Assembly: GCA_001464065.1 (NCBI GenBank)
Contig: LNDN01000007.1
Span: forward strand, 1-64,000
Origin: Acidobacteria bacterium Ga0077522
GTDB lineage: Bacteria; Acidobacteriota; Vicinamibacteria; Vicinamibacterales; Vicinamibacteraceae
Reading direction: 5' to 3'
DNA: 64,000 nucleotides
Shown here: positions 5,932 through 61,408 of the stretch, piece by piece
How the letters are laid out: each line of letters begins with the position of its first letter
Position numbering within the stretch: the first letter of the stretch is position 1
The notes under the pieces: generated by a model
Seen by the model: only the letters and a program-made list of their open reading frames with translations
What the model was told of the DNA's origin: nothing
Databases searched by the model: none
Position numbers and translations under genes: made by a program

Positions 5932-6011
5932 GGGCTCAGGGCTCTGGGCTCAGGGCTCAGAAACTGGGCTCTGGGCTCACGGCTCTGGGCTCGGGCTCGG
6001 GCTCGGGCTCA
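5932..6011. repeat. GGGCTC(A/T) heptamer array
   Basis: Eighty bases made almost entirely of GGGCTCA and GGGCTCT heptamers (5932-5959 and 5966-5986), passing into GGGCTC hexamers (5987-6011), with one 6-bp interruption GAAACT. It starts three bases after the thioredoxin stop codon. It contains no coding sequence and no T-tract typical of a terminator. Confidence 0.9.
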
Positions 6012-6032
6012 CGGCGCGGCCACACTCGATGC

Positions 6033-21259: not shown

Positions 21260-21658
21260 TTCAGAATTCACAATGCAAAATGCAGCGCGGGGCCGGCAGG
21301 GTCAGCTCTTCCGTACCCGCGCAGCGCAGCGCTCTGCAAGGCCCCCCTTGCTGCGCTCCGAATTCTCAATTTGCGGCACTAGCCTCAATTGCCCGTCCCC
21401 CCAGGTGGCGGTGCAGGCGGCAGATGGCGGTGCTCGCCCCGCACTTCATTCTGAATCCTGAATGTCACGACACACGCCTCAATTACCCGTCCCCCAAGGT
21501 GGCGGTGCAGGCGTCGATGGCGGTGCTGGCCCCGCGCTTCATTCTGAACTTTGAATGTCGAGACACACGCCTCAATTGCCCGTCTGCCGAAGGTGGCGTG
21601 CAGGCGGCAGATGGCGGTGCTCGCCCCGCGCTTCATTCTGAATCCTGAATTCTGAATT
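21258..21658. repeat. 401-bp AATTCAG element with internal 94-bp tandem units
   Basis: Bounded by AATTCAGAATTC (21258-21269) and its exact complement GAATTCTGAATT (21647-21658). The left end runs as ATTCAGA/ATTCACA/ATGCAAA/ATGCAGC heptamers into GCGGGGCC. Inside are three tandem units of about 94 bp starting CCTCAATT at 21383, 21477 and 21570, each closing with inverted heptamers (GCTTCAT-TCTGAAT type). It starts within the glpK stop codon and ends 19 bp before the next gene. There is no credible coding frame. Related elements stand at 37388-37580 and 51351-51764. Confidence 0.85.
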
Positions 21659-37387: not shown

Positions 37388-37580
37388 AATTCAGGGCCCG
37401 TGCCGCGATATTCAAGGTTCAGAATGAAGCGCGGGGCCCACAGGGTCGGCTCTGCCGCACGTTCATGACGACAGAGTGGCGTCGCGTGCTGGAGACCAGA
37501 CGGGATCCGCGCGGAGCCTGGCAGATGGTCGACCTGCACTGCATTCTGAATGTTGAATGCCGGCCAGGAGAGCCTGAATT
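37388..37580. repeat. 193-bp AATTCAG element
   Basis: Begins AATTCAGG (37388-37395), one base after the VWA stop, and ends CCTGAATT (37573-37580) at the start codon of the LON-domain gene. Inside, ATTCAAG-GTTCAGA-ATGAAGC runs into GCGGGGCCCACAGGGTCGG, very like the left part of the element at 21258 (GGGGCCGGCAGGGTCAG). The inverted partner ATTCTGAATGTTGAATG stands at 37543-37559. No coding sequence is credible; frames that extend the LON gene upstream through it are repeat-derived. Confidence 0.78.
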
Positions 37581-51350: not shown

Positions 51351-51764
51351 AATTCAGAATTCAAAATTCAAAATGAAGCGCGGGGCCGGCACCGCCAGGC
51401 TCCCGCAGTGCGGGCCGCGGGGTCCGCGGGGTCCGCACCGCTCCGCAATTCAGAATTCAAGATTCAGAATGGAGCGCCGGGCGGGCACCGCCAGGCTCCC
51501 TCAGCGGGCCGCAGGCCGCGGAATCCGCACCGCTTCGCCATTCAGAATTCAAGATTCAGAATGGAGCGCGGGGCGGGCACCGCCAGGCTCCCGCAGCGGG
51601 TCCGTAGGTCGCGGGGTCCGGACTGGCCTCGCCATTCAGAATCCAAGGTTCAGAAGGAACCGGGGGCGCGCGTTCGTGGCCTCACGTCACTCCGCGGCAG
51701 CCTGGCGGAGCCCCGCCCCGCGCTTCATTCTGCATTCTGAATGTCAGTGAAACGCGCCTGAATT
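51351..51764. repeat. 414-bp AATTCAG element with four tandem units of about 94 bp
   Basis: Units start with ATTCAGA-ATTCAAA/G-ATTCARA-ATGRAGC heptamers at 51351, 51447, 51540 and 51634 (spacing 96, 93, 94), followed by GCGGGGC-GGGCACCGCCAGGCTCC-like sequence. The right end has inverted heptamers (GCTTCAT-TCTGCAT-TCTGAAT, 51722-51742) and closes with CCTGAATT (51757-51764). It lies between the PilZ stop and the convergent M28-peptidase stop, within 2-7 bp of each. Same family as 21258-21658. Confidence 0.87.
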
Positions 51765-55007: not shown

Positions 55008-55952
55008 TTACTGCTCCAGCACGTACTCGCGCCGCGTCACGGTGCGCATCGCCAGCCACAAGGTGGCCAGGGTGATGACCGCCAGCCACAGCAGGCTCGT
55101 GCTCACCGGTGGGAACTCCCGGAACAGCGACGTCAGCAGGCTGGCCGTGCTGTCGTCGCTCGGCATCGCCTGCGGCACCAGGCCCTGCAGGTAGTAGGCC
55201 ACCGAGAAGCGGCGCAGGTAGCCCGGGATGAGCAGGATGGCGGGCTCCCAGGCGAAGACGAAGGCCAGGCCGGTCAGCAGGGGCCGCTTGAACTGCGCCC
55301 CCACCCAGGCGAAGACCGCGCCGTACGTGGCGAGTCCCAGCACGATGACCACGAGGTCCTTGACCAGGTCCATGAACCCGCCGGCCAGCGACCCACCGGG
55401 CCGCGACATGATCAACAGGTAGACCAGCACCACCGACGGCAGCACCACCGCCACCGTGCACACCAGGTACGCCAGGTACTTGCCGAGCAGCACCGCGCCG
55501 CGCGGGATGGGCCGCGAGAACAGGTACGTGAGCGTCTTGTCCTCGACCTCGTCGGCCATCAGCGACGTGCCGTAGAACACGGCCAGCACTGGCACGGCGA
55601 AGCGCAGGAAGAACACCCACACCATCAGCCCGAAGATGGCCGCACTGCCCACCTGCACACCTTCGATCTCGACACTGCCCCTGGTGGCGAAGAGATCGAT
55701 GATGCGCACGAGCACCGCAATCAGCAGCGGCCCGCCCACCACCAGCGCCATGAACACCGTGCGCCGCGACCACAGCATCTGGTCGAGCGACAGGTCGAAG
55801 ATGCGGGCGGCCGCACGCCAGAGGGAGAGGCTCGGGGCCTCGTGGGGCGTCCGCTCCCCTCGGGCACCGGGCACCGGCACGCCGGGAGTCGGGAGTCGGG
55901 AGTCGGGAGTCGCCGACGTGGAGGGCATCCCCGTCTCAGCAGGCATGGCCAT
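55008..55952 (-). CDS. ABC-2-type permease, second of the operon
   Basis: A 314-residue membrane protein with six helices (VFMALVVGGPLLIAVLVRII, VFFLRFAVPVLAVFYGTSLM, LAYLVCTVAVVLPSVVLVYL, among others). FYGTSLMADEVEDKTLTYLFSRPIPR is the ABC-2 permease signature between helices 2 and 3. The first 35 residues are low-complexity and include DSRLPTP, encoded by the GGGAGTC array at 55884-55911. That stretch is probably not native, and the true start may be a later GTG near GARGERTPHEA. It would work with the ATPase gene at 56406, from which a four-helix-bundle gene now separates it. Confidence 0.83.
   Translation of the reverse strand: MAMPAETGMPSTSATPDSRLPTPGVPVPGARGERTPHEAPSLSLWRAAARIFDLSLDQMLWSRRTVFMALVVGGPLLIAVLVRIIDLFATRGSVEIEGVQVGSAAIFGLMVWVFFLRFAVPVLAVFYGTSLMADEVEDKTLTYLFSRPIPRGAVLLGKYLAYLVCTVAVVLPSVVLVYLLIMSRPGGSLAGGFMDLVKDLVVIVLGLATYGAVFAWVGAQFKRPLLTGLAFVFAWEPAILLIPGYLRRFSVAYYLQGLVPQAMPSDDSTASLLTSLFREFPPVSTSLLWLAVITLATLWLAMRTVTRREYVLEQ
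55884..55911. repeat. (GGGAGTC)4 array, left flank of S23 gene
   Basis: Exactly four perfect copies of GGGAGTC on the plus strand. It lies inside the 5' part of the permease reading frame. Its exact complement, (GACTCCC)4, stands at 56376-56403 on the other side of the S23-type gene, giving a perfect 28-bp inverted repeat about 465 bp apart. A third copy is at 61381. Confidence 0.95.
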
Positions 55953-55969
55953 TGCTCCGTGCGAAGTGG

Positions 55970-56335
55970 ATGGGCATCGTACGCACCTATCAGGACCTCG
56001 AGGTATGGCAGGTGGCGATCGAGTTGGCCGTCGAGGTCACTCGGCTCGCCAATCGCTTTCCTGGCAACGAGTTGTACGCACTCGGGCTGCAGTTGCGACG
56101 CGCGGCGGTCTCGGTGTCGAGCAACATCGCCGAGGGATACGGACGCTCGACCCGACCGGAGTACGTGCGATTCCTGCGAATCGCCCGTGGGTCGAACGCT
56201 GAAGTTTCTTCACTCCTCGTCGTCGCCGAGCGGCTCGGGTACCTCAACGGCGAGACTGCGGCTCGGCCTCGCGAGACGAGTGAGCGCGTCGCCGCGATGC
56301 TGACGCGTCTGCTGCAGACACTCGAGGGGAGGTAA
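55970..56335 (+). CDS. four-helix-bundle protein, S23/IVP family (23S rRNA intervening-sequence type)
   Basis: A 121-residue protein: RTYQDLEVWQVAIELAVEVT, FPGNELYALGLQLRRAAVSV-SSNIAEGYGR, YVRFLRIARGSNAEVSSLLV, LGYLNGE. This is the clear pattern of the S23 four-helix bundle, pentameric in solved relatives, found in rRNA intervening sequences and, as Avd, in diversity-generating retroelements. No rRNA or reverse transcriptase is here. It lies antisense within an ABC operon and is flanked by (GGGAGTC)4 and its complement. ATG 55970 is chosen; a TTG 18 bp upstream is possible. Function unknown; a basic RNA- or DNA-binding role is usual for the family. Confidence 0.9.
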   Translation: MGIVRTYQDLEVWQVAIELAVEVTRLANRFPGNELYALGLQLRRAAVSVSSNIAEGYGRSTRPEYVRFLRIARGSNAEVSSLLVVAERLGYLNGETAARPRETSERVAAMLTRLLQTLEGR

Positions 56336-56375
56336 CCGGCGACGCCGCGGCCCCCCGGCGTTCGGTTGGCAGCCC

Positions 56376-56403
56376 GACTCCCGACTCCCGACTCCCGACT
56401 CCC
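56376..56403. repeat. (GACTCCC)4 array, right flank of S23 gene
   Basis: Four perfect GACTCCC copies, the complement of the left array. It ends 2 bp before the stop codon of the ABC ATPase (56408-56406). In a minus-strand operon transcript the two arrays would pair in a 28-bp stem with the S23 region as loop. Confidence 0.95.
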
Positions 56404-56405
56404 GC

Positions 56406-57329
56406 TCACTTGACCAGATACCCGAACACCGCGGCGAGGTTGTCGTCGGGTGAGGTGACCTCGTCGATCTGGCCGAAGTGCTCGGTGGCGGCCAGGGTGG
56501 TCAGCTGGGTGTAGAACGTGTCGGGAGCGTCGGTCTCGACCACGAGGGCGTCGCCCTCGAAGCGCAGGCTGCGGACGTAGGGATACGACAGACACTCGCG
56601 GGCGAGCTCGCGCGGGTGACGGGCGCGGATGTGCACCGTGTGCGGGTGGTGGTCGATGAGCGCGCGGATGTCGTGCACGTCGCCCTCGGCCAGGATGCGC
56701 CCGTTGTTGATGAGGAGCACGTTGCTCGTCATCGCCTCCACCTCGTGGAGGATGTGGCTCGACACCAGCACGCTGCGGCCGTCGCGGGCCCATTCGCGGA
56801 TGATGCGGATGGTGCGCCGCCGCATGAGCGGGTCCATGCCCGTCAGCGGTTCGTCCAGGATGAGGAGGTCGGGGTCGTGCACGAGCGCCTGCGCGAGCTT
56901 GACGCGCTGGCGCATGCCCTTGCTGTAGGCGCCGATCTTCTTGTCGGCCGCCGGCACGAGGTCCACCGCCTCGAGCGCCCGCAACGCGGCGTCCTTCGCC
57001 TCGGTGCTCGAGTAGCCGTTCAGGCGCACCAGCGCCGAGACCCACTCGAGCCCCGTCATCCGCTCGTAGAAGCTGTCCTGCTCGGGGCAGAAGCCGATGC
57101 GGTTGTAGGCGCCGGGGTTGTTCCAGATCGACTGGCCCAGCACCGTCACGGTGCCCTTGCTCGGCTTGAGCTGCCCGGTGATCAGCTTCATGAACGTCGA
57201 CTTGCCGGCACCGTTGGGGCCCAGCAGGCCGGTGATGCCGGTCGGGATCGTGACGTTGACGTCGTTGAGGCCGATGACCTGCCCGTACCACTTCGAGACG
57301 TGCTCGGCGATGACGATGGGCGTGCTCAT
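56406..57329 (-). CDS. ABC transporter ATP-binding protein, second of the operon
   Basis: A 307-residue cytosolic ATPase of the ABC-2/NatA-like group. Walker A GPNGAGKST (37-45), Q-loop GFCPEQDSF, signature YSKGMRQRVKLAQ, Walker B LLILDEPLTGMD and H-loop SSHILHEVE are all intact. A C-terminal extension of about 80 residues is typical of these ATPases. ATG 57329 overlaps the upstream permease stop (ATGA). Its permease partner is probably the gene at 55008, now separated by the S23 cassette. Confidence 0.93.
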   Translation of the reverse strand: MSTPIVIAEHVSKWYGQVIGLNDVNVTIPTGITGLLGPNGAGKSTFMKLITGQLKPSKGTVTVLGQSIWNNPGAYNRIGFCPEQDSFYERMTGLEWVSALVRLNGYSSTEAKDAALRALEAVDLVPAADKKIGAYSKGMRQRVKLAQALVHDPDLLILDEPLTGMDPLMRRRTIRIIREWARDGRSVLVSSHILHEVEAMTSNVLLINNGRILAEGDVHDIRALIDHHPHTVHIRARHPRELARECLSYPYVRSLRFEGDALVVETDAPDTFYTQLTTLAATEHFGQIDEVTSPDDNLAAVFGYLVK

Positions 57330-58168
57330 GCCACCACCTCCACGCCGCGGACACGCCGTTCGAGCACCGAGGCCGACAGCACCACGACGGCCAGCAGCAC
57401 GAGGAAGGACACCGCCACCGGCGTCTGGTGCCGGGGCGCCTGACGGAAGATCACGTCTCCGACCTGGTCGAGACTGGCCTGGACGGACACCCACGAGATG
57501 GCCGTGCTGCCGGTGATGAAGCGCAGCGCGTTGAACATCGCATCCGAGAAGATCAGCACACCGGCGAACATGATGCCGACGAAGCGACTGCTGCGCGACA
57601 GCGACGACAACGCCGTCATGCCGAAGGTGATGACGATGACGGTCAGCAGGCAGTACAGCGTGACCGAGGCGATGAGCGACGTGTTGTCCTTGAGGAACGT
57701 GAAGCTGCCCGAGAAGGCGATCTGCAGGATGAGCAGCAGGATCGCCGGCAGCCAGGTGATGGCCAGCAGGAACACCGCCAGCACGCTCATCTTGCCGAGG
57801 ATGTACTCGGCGCGCGTCACGGGCTTCGAGAGGTAGAGCTGCAGGGCGTTGGCGCGGCGGTCGTTGGCGATGAGGCCGGCGCCGACGTAGATGGTGACCA
57901 GGAAGACGAAGATGCCCTGCTGCCCGAGGAAGTCGCGGAACGTCTGCGCGCTCGGCGCCAGGAACGTCGCCGCCTGCGAGAAGTTGGAGGCGAGGAACAA
58001 CTGGCTGGCGCGGACGACGAACGGGATCCACGCCACGATCAGCAAGCCGAGGAAGGCCTTGCGCGACAGGAACGACATCAGGCCGGCACGGGCGATCACC
58101 ATCCACGCGCTGCGGACCGGGCGTCGCTCGCCGGCATAGCGCCGGTACGACTGGTCATGAATGGGCAC
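57326..58168 (-). CDS. ABC-2-type permease, first of the operon
   Basis: A 280-residue inner-membrane protein with about six helices. It starts PIHDQSYRRYAGERRPVRSA, a cytoplasmic lead common in this group, then FLGLLIVAWIPFVVRASQLF, FLVTIYVGAGLIANDRRANA (ABC-2 signature LIANDRR-ALQLYLSKPVTR), VFLLAITWLPAILLLILQIA and others. GTG 58168 is preceded by GGAGGAGG, so I reject longer forms. Overlaps the upstream ATPase by 14 bp and the downstream one by 4 bp. Confidence 0.9.
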   Translation of the reverse strand: MPIHDQSYRRYAGERRPVRSAWMVIARAGLMSFLSRKAFLGLLIVAWIPFVVRASQLFLASNFSQAATFLAPSAQTFRDFLGQQGIFVFLVTIYVGAGLIANDRRANALQLYLSKPVTRAEYILGKMSVLAVFLLAITWLPAILLLILQIAFSGSFTFLKDNTSLIASVTLYCLLTVIVITFGMTALSSLSRSSRFVGIMFAGVLIFSDAMFNALRFITGSTAISWVSVQASLDQVGDVIFRQAPRHQTPVAVSFLVLLAVVVLSASVLERRVRGVEVVA

Positions 58169-59102
58169 GGCTGCCTCCTCCTTCGATGGCGTCGACGAAG
58201 ACGTCTTCGAGTGTCGGCACACTCGGCCGCAGGTGCCGGACCTGCACGCCGTGCGTGGATGCCAGCGAGAACACGTCGCGCGCGGTGCGGCCCGCCGGCA
58301 CCAGCACGCGCATCACGTCGTCGTCGGTGCCGTGCGCCTCGAGGCCCTCGGTGCGCAGCACGTCGACGAAGCGCGGCAGGTCGCCCTTGATGCGCAGTTC
58401 GAAGACGCTGCCGCCGGTGCCCTTGAGCGCGGCGATGGGCCCCTGCGTGGCGATGCGCCCCTTGTCCATCACGATGACGTGGTCGCAGGTGTGCTCGACG
58501 TCCGGCAGGAGGTGCGACGACAGGATCAGGTTGACCTGCTTGTTGTGCCCGAGGTCGTGGATGAGCGCGAGCATCTCGTCGCGGCCCTTGGGGTCCATGC
58601 CGTTGGTCGGCTCGTCGAGGAACAGCAGGTCGGGGTCGTGGACGAGCGCCTGGGCCAGCTTGATCCGCTGCTTCATGCCGGTCGAGTAGGTCTCGACGTT
58701 GCGGTACCGCGCCTCGCCGAGGCCGACGTAGTAGAGCACCTCGTGCGCGCGCTGCATCGCGTCGACGGGGGGCAGGCCGGAGAGTTGCCCGCAGTAGGCG
58801 ACGAAGGTGACCGCATTCATGCCGGGGATGTGGGAGTCGTTCTCGGGCATGTAGCCGATGCGGGCCCGGATCTCCGGCGCCTTGTACCGGACGTCGAGAC
58901 CGAGCACGTGCATCTGGCCGGTCGTCGGGACGACGAACCCGAGCAGGGCCTTGATCATCGTGCTCTTGCCGGCGCCGTTGGGGCCGAGGAGGCCGACGGC
59001 CCCGGCCGGAAACTGCACGGCCACGCCGGCCAGCGCCTGATTCTTCCCGTAGACGACGGTCACATCGTCCAGGGTCACCACGGAAGTAGGGTCAGGGCTC
59101 AC
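58155..59102 (-). CDS. ABC transporter ATP-binding protein, first of the operon
   Basis: A protein of about 315 residues with all motifs: Walker A GPNGAGKST (about 40-48), Q-loop GYMPENDS (Glu where most have Gln), signature YSTGMKQRIKLAQ, Walker B LLFLDEPTNGMD and H-loop SSHLLPDVE. The C-terminal domain covers the last 80 residues. The start is ambiguous: GTG 59102, or GTG 59081/59078 next to the conserved TLDDVTVVYG; none has a strong Shine-Dalgarno. It heads the ATPase-permease-ATPase-permease operon. Confidence 0.9.
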   Translation of the reverse strand: MSPDPTSVVTLDDVTVVYGKNQALAGVAVQFPAGAVGLLGPNGAGKSTMIKALLGFVVPTTGQMHVLGLDVRYKAPEIRARIGYMPENDSHIPGMNAVTFVAYCGQLSGLPPVDAMQRAHEVLYYVGLGEARYRNVETYSTGMKQRIKLAQALVHDPDLLFLDEPTNGMDPKGRDEMLALIHDLGHNKQVNLILSSHLLPDVEHTCDHVIVMDKGRIATQGPIAALKGTGGSVFELRIKGDLPRFVDVLRTEGLEAHGTDDDVMRVLVPAGRTARDVFSLASTHGVQVRHLRPSVPTLEDVFVDAIEGGGSRAHS

Positions 59103-59124
59103 GGGGTCTCGGGCATCGAAATTC

Positions 59125-59152
59125 GGGAACAGCGAACCGGAAACCGGGAACC
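59125..59152. repeat. GGGAACC-type heptamers
   Basis: GGGAACA, GCGAACC, GGAAACC, GGGAACC: four degenerate heptamers 22 bp before the first ABC ATPase start. AGGCTAC-AGGCTAC (59191-59204) is a second, two-unit run nearby. Confidence 0.65.
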
Positions 59153-59230
59153 GGCCCCCGGCGCCACAGGTCAACAGGTCTGCGCTTGGCAGGCTACAGG
59201 CTACATACGGACCCTGACGAGGTGTGGTTC

Positions 59231-59258
59231 GCCCGCCTTCGCCAAGGCTTCGGCGGGC
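59231..59258. repeat. GCCCGCC...GGCGGGC palindromic element (AFAKASAG type)
   Basis: GCCCGCC-TTCGCCAAGGCTTC-GGCGGGC. In one frame it reads AFAKASAG, a sequence that turns up in many unrelated bacterial annotations because this palindrome is dispersed. Here it lies 21 bp downstream of the HD-domain gene stop and may terminate that operon. It is not coding. Confidence 0.7.
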
Positions 59259-59278
59259 CAGGCCCCTCGTCGCCAGGG

Positions 59279-59860
59279 CTACGTCGTCGGCGTCCCCACC
59301 AGTCCGAGGAGGGCCGCGTCCTCCCGGAGTGACTCGATGACATGGGCGATGTGGTCCTCGAGTGGCAACCCGAGCGCCTCGGCGCCGCGGATCAGGTCCT
59401 CGCGCGGGACCGCGCGCGCAAACGCCTTGTCCTTCATCCGCTTCTTCACCGACGAGGCCTCGAGGTCCAGGATGCTGCGCGAGGGGCGCACCAGCGCCGC
59501 GGCGGTCACGAACCCGGACATCTCGTCGCAGGCATAGAGCACCTTCTCCAGCTGGCTGTCGCGACTCACGCCGCTGTAGTCGGCGTGCGACAGGATGGCG
59601 CGGGTCACGACCTCCGGGTACCCGAGCTGCCGCAGGATCTCGACGCCCTTCCAGGGGTGCTCCTCCTGCGAGGGGAACTGCTCGTAGTCGAAGTCGTGCA
59701 ACAGCGCCGTCACGCTCCACAGGGCCTCGTCTTCCCCGAGGCGCCGGGCATAGCCGCGGACGGCCGCGTCCACCGCGTAGGCATGGCGGCGCAGGCTCTC
59801 ACCCTGGGTGTACTCGTGCAGCAGGGCGAGGGCGGCATCGCGATCCGGTGTCCAGTTCAT
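59279..59860 (-). CDS. HD-domain phosphohydrolase
   Basis: A 193-residue cytosolic metal-dependent HD protein: RRHAYAVDAAVRGYAR provides the first His, VTALLHDFDYEQFP the HD pair, and ILSHADYSGV plus VLYACDEMSGFVTA further ligands. Similar proteins are annotated as HDIG-domain hydrolases, and the substrate is usually a nucleotide or small phosphoester. ATG 59860 overlaps the APC transporter stop, so it is coupled to that transporter. No regulatory domain is attached. Confidence 0.87.
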   Translation of the reverse strand: MNWTPDRDAALALLHEYTQGESLRRHAYAVDAAVRGYARRLGEDEALWSVTALLHDFDYEQFPSQEEHPWKGVEILRQLGYPEVVTRAILSHADYSGVSRDSQLEKVLYACDEMSGFVTAAALVRPSRSILDLEASSVKKRMKDKAFARAVPREDLIRGAEALGLPLEDHIAHVIESLREDAALLGLVGTPTT

Positions 59861-61380: not shown

Positions 61381-61408
61381 GGGAGTCGGGAGTCGGGAGT
61401 CGGGAGTC
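61381..61408. repeat. (GGGAGTC)4 array, solo copy
   Basis: Four perfect GGGAGTC copies, identical to those that flank the S23 gene, without any S23 gene beside it. It lies 30 bp upstream of the APC transporter start, in the gap before the Nudix gene. Confidence 0.95.

Follow-up and report, generated by a model that had tools for sequence, protein, structure and literature searches.

REPIN/RAYT systems, the intervening sequences (IVS) of 23S rRNA, the Avd proteins of DGRs and the heptameric repeats of several bacteria are the closest described counterparts of the locus reported here. In a REPIN/RAYT system, a Y1/HUH transposase gene lies between inverted copies of a short palindromic repeat, REP; further copies of REP are scattered over the genome, singly or in inverted pairs, and the type of repeat follows the protein lineage. 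The IVS of 23S rRNA are insertions in rRNA that hold a PF05635 (S23) protein gene between inverted repeats, in a transcribed region that can loop out. PF05635 has been treated as Avd-like (PMC10053308), and Avd is the partner of the DGR reverse transcriptase. Heptameric repeats are known as GGGAATC in Xanthomonas, as GGGGA[C/T]T in Nostoc and as STRRs in cyanobacteria; convergent pairs of such repeats were reported in a study that names neither an S23 gene nor a mobile element for them (PMC4692102).

Here we describe an S23/IVP gene framed by inverted heptamer arrays within an ABC operon of Acidobacteria bacterium Ga0077522 (contig LNDN01000007.1); the whole stretch of DNA analysed, 64,000 nucleotides long, is referred to as the window. 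We consider it rather likely that this cassette is one copy of a small (~0.5 kb) mobile element, with S23 as its only gene and, at its ends, inverted arrays whose short unit is usually 7 nt long. In S23 elements as in REPIN/RAYT systems, the gene has on both sides, in inverted copies, a repeat that is dispersed through the genome, also singly and in inverted pairs, and repeat type follows protein lineage; however, instead of a Y1/HUH transposase the S23 gene encodes a four-helix bundle that lacks an HUH nuclease, and the ends are 7-nt tandem arrays where REP is palindromic. With the 23S rRNA IVS they share the protein, the inverted repeats and the potential to loop out of a transcribed region, but their hosts are protein-coding operons, the window copy lying between ABC genes, and the heptamer arrays at their ends recur genome-wide. 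With Avd they share the fold, whereas they need no reverse transcriptase as far as could be detected and S23 has no sequence match in the phage collection. Compared with the known heptameric repeats, one of which, that of Xanthomonas, frames an S23 gene, what is gained here is a partner gene. To our knowledge this class of element is undescribed: S23 in connection with tandem repeats, heptamer arrays or mobility found no description in the open-access literature, with subscription papers and preprints outside that scope. An earlier description is therefore possible, and the dispersal of the class is read from comparison.

The S23 cassette of the window

The S23 gene encodes 120 aa on the plus strand (55973..56335) and scores above the family cut-offs of both PF05635 (114.8 versus 33.8 bits, E=2.7e-33) and TIGR02436 (107.4 versus 24 bits, E=4e-31), which bears out the family assignment made in an earlier note on this DNA. 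It is framed by exactly four copies of GGGAGTC at 55884..55911 (plus strand, the G-rich strand reading inward) and by the inverted partner of this array, four copies of GACTCCC at 56376..56403 (minus strand); the perfect inverted repeat around the gene measures 30 nt. As a doubled word, GGGAGTC occurs nine times in the window against an expectation of 0.01. The host operon runs on the minus strand in the order ATPase (58155-59720), permease (57326-58222), ATPase (56406..57329; PF00005, E=4e-29), S23 cassette and ABC-2 permease (55008..55952; PF12679, E=9e-10), and S23 is antisense to it. The four-plus-four framing, the gene order and the opposite direction of S23 are thus all as first described.

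The window copy departs from a clean, textbook-style insertion. The right array lies 2 nt past the stop codon of the ATPase immediately upstream, and the left array is not strictly intergenic, falling inside the 5' part of the coding sequence predicted for the permease immediately downstream (ATG at 55952); in the genus it sits in a gene. The N-terminal extension of the permease that holds the array is absent from most relatives outside the genus. Between 55884 and 55952 the left array is translated in frame as a repeated DSRLPTP within this extension, suggesting that such repeats can add coding sequence.

An AF2 model of the window S23 (pLDDT 96.9) has a 2GSC-like four-helix-bundle fold, 2GSC being the best PDB match (TM 0.90, rmsd 1.3 Å). 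Avd-type structures match the model as well (4DWL, TM 0.80; 8UB7, TM 0.77), and structure comparison recognised no nuclease or polymerase fold in it. S23 is under purifying selection, with a dN/dS of 0.11 between the window gene and the same-site gene of a congener and of 0.04-0.26 for S23 genes. Sequence searches gave no match to S23 among 50,697 phage records, and a phage origin was therefore rejected, as was a defence system, for which PADLOC returned no match.

Inverted flanks at other S23 loci

The genome from which the window comes (5.44 Mb, 429 contigs) has nine matches to PF05635. GGGAGTC does not frame the other S23 genes of this genome and was rejected as a universal S23 flank, since these genes have other units, several of them in inverted arrays of their own: arrays of GGGCTCA (L004), of an AGGACGG-like unit (L007) and of AAGGGAC (L009), and at L006 a perfect 26-nt inverted repeat with ATTCAGAATG. 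The earlier note had let its idea of a cassette depend on S23 genes elsewhere also having flanking arrays. Indeed they do, with other units.

S23 loci were picked by protein similarity alone from the same genome, the phylum, the same genus and a set of 80 named loci including archaea. The similarity of their inverted flanks was scored against dinucleotide shuffles, with controls displaced by 1.3-2 kb within the same loci. Significant inverted flanks (p<1e-3) were present at 160 of 204 S23 loci compared to 1 of 417 displaced controls, and at p<1e-5 at 100 S23 loci compared to no control. The named loci alone, drawn from many phyla and including Methanophagales archaea, gave 48/75 against 4/265 controls under slightly different settings. 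Loci with no significant flanks made up 22% of those tested and 35% of the named set. Of six plasmid-borne S23 genes from Cyanobacteria and Gemmatimonadota, five also had inverted flanks. The best period among the 160 flanked loci was 7 in 122 cases, 8 in 24 and 9 in 10, and the inward-reading strand was richer in G than in C at 140 of them.

The arms matched in 83% of pairs taken from the same S23, compared to 1.3% when arms were mispaired between different S23 loci of one genome and 6% in direct orientation. Arm identity was 0.89 in register and 0.80 when shifted, a difference due in part to choosing the best register, and this hints that the arms of an element are copies of each other. Simple-sequence repeats might by coincidence fall on both sides of a gene, and an excess of heptamer repeats has been described for some bacteria (PMC4692102), but the count of doubled words in the window, the contrast between S23 loci and displaced controls and the rarity of matches between mispaired arms leave this explanation with a vanishingly small probability, and chance was rejected.

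The unit follows the S23 lineage

Units were compared with S23 identity across 114 period-7 loci from 79 genomes. Among S23 pairs below 50% identity, ~2% have units within one mismatch of each other, a share that reaches 43% at 60-65% identity (different genomes) and 75% at 75-90%. None of 2000 permutations in a Mantel test gave an association as strong, and neither did any of 2000 within-genome shuffles, so that the link between unit and S23 is not a matter of host background. A single genome (G239) has eight S23 genes and eight units. On these comparisons, the unit tracks the S23 lineage and not the host.

Dispersed arrays

The units of S23 elements also occur as dispersed arrays. Within the window, a solo (GGGAGTC)4 array, a dispersed copy of the cassette's unit, lies at 61381..61408 (plus strand), and at 5932..6015 (plus strand) there is a dispersed array whose unit, GGGCTCA, also frames the S23 gene L004 of the same genome. 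The genome of the window contains 120 GGGAGTC dimers and none of the reversed word. GGGAATC dimers number 91 in Xanthomonas vasicola, 140 and 88 in two Luteimonas and 36 in one Rhodanobacter, and the S23 arms of these four Xanthomonadales genomes are GGGAATC or related; Rhodanobacter DHB23 has 0 GGGAATC and 84 GGGATTC, and its S23 arms consist of GGGATTC. CCGGCAA is found 388 times in congener G003 as against 0-7 times in the other congeners. Random pieces yielded 36 period-7 arrays in 637 kb from 20 S23-rich genomes and 1 in 577 kb from 20 S23-negative genomes (p=3.6e-5), a comparison within one phylum in which phylogeny is only partly controlled and acts as a confounder. For periods 10, 11 and 13, no difference in density between S23-rich and S23-negative genomes was observed in the same pieces.

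The listed GGGAGTC arrays in the window's own genome are mostly single. In Rhodanobacter DHB23, by comparison, all 15 pairs of neighbouring arrays are convergent, with spacers of 24-98 bp and no S23 inside; these short inverted pairs, of the kind known from REPINs, look like short, non-autonomous copies. Other repeats are present in the window as well. Tandem arrays of 92-94 bp units with ATTCAGAATTC-type motifs occupy 21382-21650 and 51352-51655, and such motifs at 21444, 21537 and 51723 (the last next to the second array) are similar to the inverted 26-nt flank of L006. At 37407-37561, a convergent pair of L006-type motifs, ~110 bp apart and without S23, likewise resembles a short non-autonomous copy.

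Since the S23 fold is that of Avd, S23 and its arrays could be imagined as passengers mobilised in trans by a RAYT/Y1 transposase, a DGR-type reverse transcriptase or some other transposase. We consider this highly improbable. Y1_Tnp had no match (E<=1e-5) in congeners G002, G003 and G004 or in the X. vasicola genome, and RVT_1 had none at this threshold in G000, G001, G002 and G004, the genome of the window included, or in four of the five Xanthomonadales genomes tested, yet several of the genomes negative for one or the other hold tens to hundreds of arrays. Passenger status would also leave the specificity between S23 and unit unexplained. A RAYT or a reverse transcriptase as obligatory partner was rejected, as neither was detected in several array-rich genomes.

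Position of the elements in operons

The earlier note had taken a protein-coding transcript to be the host of the cassette, and this turns out to be the usual situation for S23 elements: of 111 flanked loci callable by simple ORF calling, 85 lie between genes of the same direction, 24 between convergent and 2 between divergent genes. In these 85 tandem cases S23 is co-directional with the operon 73 times, suggesting that it is probably expressed by read-through, and antisense 12 times, the minority orientation to which the window copy belongs. The elements fit closely between their neighbours, with medians of 4 bp from the upstream stop codon to the arm and of 6 bp from the arm to the next gene.

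In Xanthomonas, GGGAATC arrays frame an S23 gene between two genes that we take from their translations to be accB and accC; the same order is recognisable on this basis in Luteimonas and indicated in Rhodanobacter. Judged again by translation, the genes around S23 are dnaK and dnaJ in Hydrogenophilus, secD and secF in another host operon, and ahcY and metF (ahcY-like and metF-like genes) at L120 and L121, where a SAH riboswitch lies 1.5 kb upstream of the S23 element. On plasmid pANA02 of Anabaena sp. 90 (L280), the genes on either side of S23 are cas6 and cas4, in a CRISPR operon of type I-D. In Thiohalocapsa halophila (L173), an S23 element with (TTAGTGG)n arms directly precedes a brxL-like gene, which, from its N-terminus only, we take to be brxL of a BREX system. 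An rRNA context was not found among the 20 named S23 loci searched.

That the arms abut the stop and start codons of co-transcribed genes would suit RNA processing as the main function, in which RNase III would cut the arm stem in the operon mRNA and excise S23 as in the IVS of 23S rRNA. A stem of 28-30 bp does form in silico, and S23 belongs to the protein family of these rRNA insertions (PMC10053308). However, where the two arms differ, G-U pairs are not favoured on the S23-sense strand (171 versus 172), a wobble pattern that gives no sign of selection on an RNA stem; moreover, most arrays genome-wide are solo and unable to form such a stem, and the window S23 is antisense. RNA processing as the main function is therefore improbable in our judgement, although an RNA role of the predicted stem is possible. 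What holds of the earlier note's RNA-processing claim is that the stem can form in silico; the wobble pattern of the arms does not support it.

Turnover at shared sites

At the junction that the cassette occupies in the window, most relatives of the same order have only a short distance between the end of the ATPase gene and the beginning of the permease gene. Among the congeners, this site holds the same S23 with GGGAGTC/GGGAATC arrays (G002), a different S23 with CGGGTAC/CGGGTCA-like arrays (G001), an S23 remnant between CCGGCAA arrays (G003), or neither S23 nor arrays (G004). Relatives do not, then, all keep S23 at this place with unrelated flanks, the other outcome on which the cassette idea had been staked; instead they have an empty operon, or another S23 between matching inverted arrays of its own. 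The idea of a mobile cassette has come through both comparisons, with its dispersal read from genomes and no copying seen directly.

Two other members of the order carry arrays at the same ATPase/permease junction, L051 a pair of short inverted GCGCGAAGG arrays with no S23 and L057 a solo GGCACGA array, suggesting a recurrent landing spot. The solo array at 61381 adjoins a Nudix gene, and at the same spot congeners hold other units, GGGCACC and GGGTACC. Array positions are thus retained and the units at them change in step, the pattern expected of concerted evolution.

Such persistence would also suit concerted evolution of binding sites. S23 could be a repeat-binding protein with a regulatory or chromosome-organising role, and the arrays could be its binding sites, arisen from replication slippage and kept by selection, with nothing mobile involved. 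The pairing of S23 with its unit and a dispersal confined to genomes with S23 would also be expected from binding. Nevertheless, at one operon site S23 is present, absent or swapped together with other arrays; S23 elements occur in unrelated operons of different lineages; and a pairwise inspection of close arrays, made in one genome, found 15/15 in convergent orientation across short spacers. On balance we regard an immobile binding protein as unlikely.

Discussion

Comparison across genomes has shown flanked S23 genes in many phyla, a unit proper to each S23 lineage, dispersed units, placement in operons and turnover at sites. The reach of the pattern through much of the family in different phyla, the match between unit and S23 lineage and the dispersed solo arrays go beyond what the earlier note had seen. 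From these results we conclude that S23 and its heptamer arrays make up a REPIN/RAYT-like class of element, whose dispersal we infer from the comparisons. S23 would then be the trans-acting partner of its own unit, as RAYT is of REP. It might recognise the array as DNA or RNA and, together with host replication or repair enzymes, promote copying, both of the framed stretch and of arrays by themselves, with new copies landing just behind stop codons; it would also keep the arrays of one genome alike. The arms may pair in RNA or in single-stranded DNA and loop S23 out, which would bring the flanking stop and start codons to within ~10 nt of each other. Through such looping-out, essential operons (accBC, dnaKJ) would be able to tolerate an insertion.

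A bolder version of this proposal is held more tentatively. It is possible, though we would not yet wager on it, that a 120-aa four-helix protein without a catalytic domain, from one of the most widely distributed of the puzzling bacterial protein families, drives the spread and genome-wide homogenisation of its cognate heptamer through host enzymes alone. S23 elements would then be DNA elements of a new, self-dispersing class, with the rRNA intervening sequences and Avd as its specialised offshoots.

If the mobile-element reading is true, it supplies both a partner and an explanation for two old puzzles, namely the role of S23/IVP outside rRNA and the origin of the heptameric repeats in Xanthomonas, cyanobacteria and many other bacteria. 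The pairing of S23 with its unit predicts which repeat each S23 would handle, and sites at which this is testable can be named, accB/accC in Xanthomonadales and dnaK/dnaJ in Hydrogenophilus. The finding also bears on how operons tolerate insertions.
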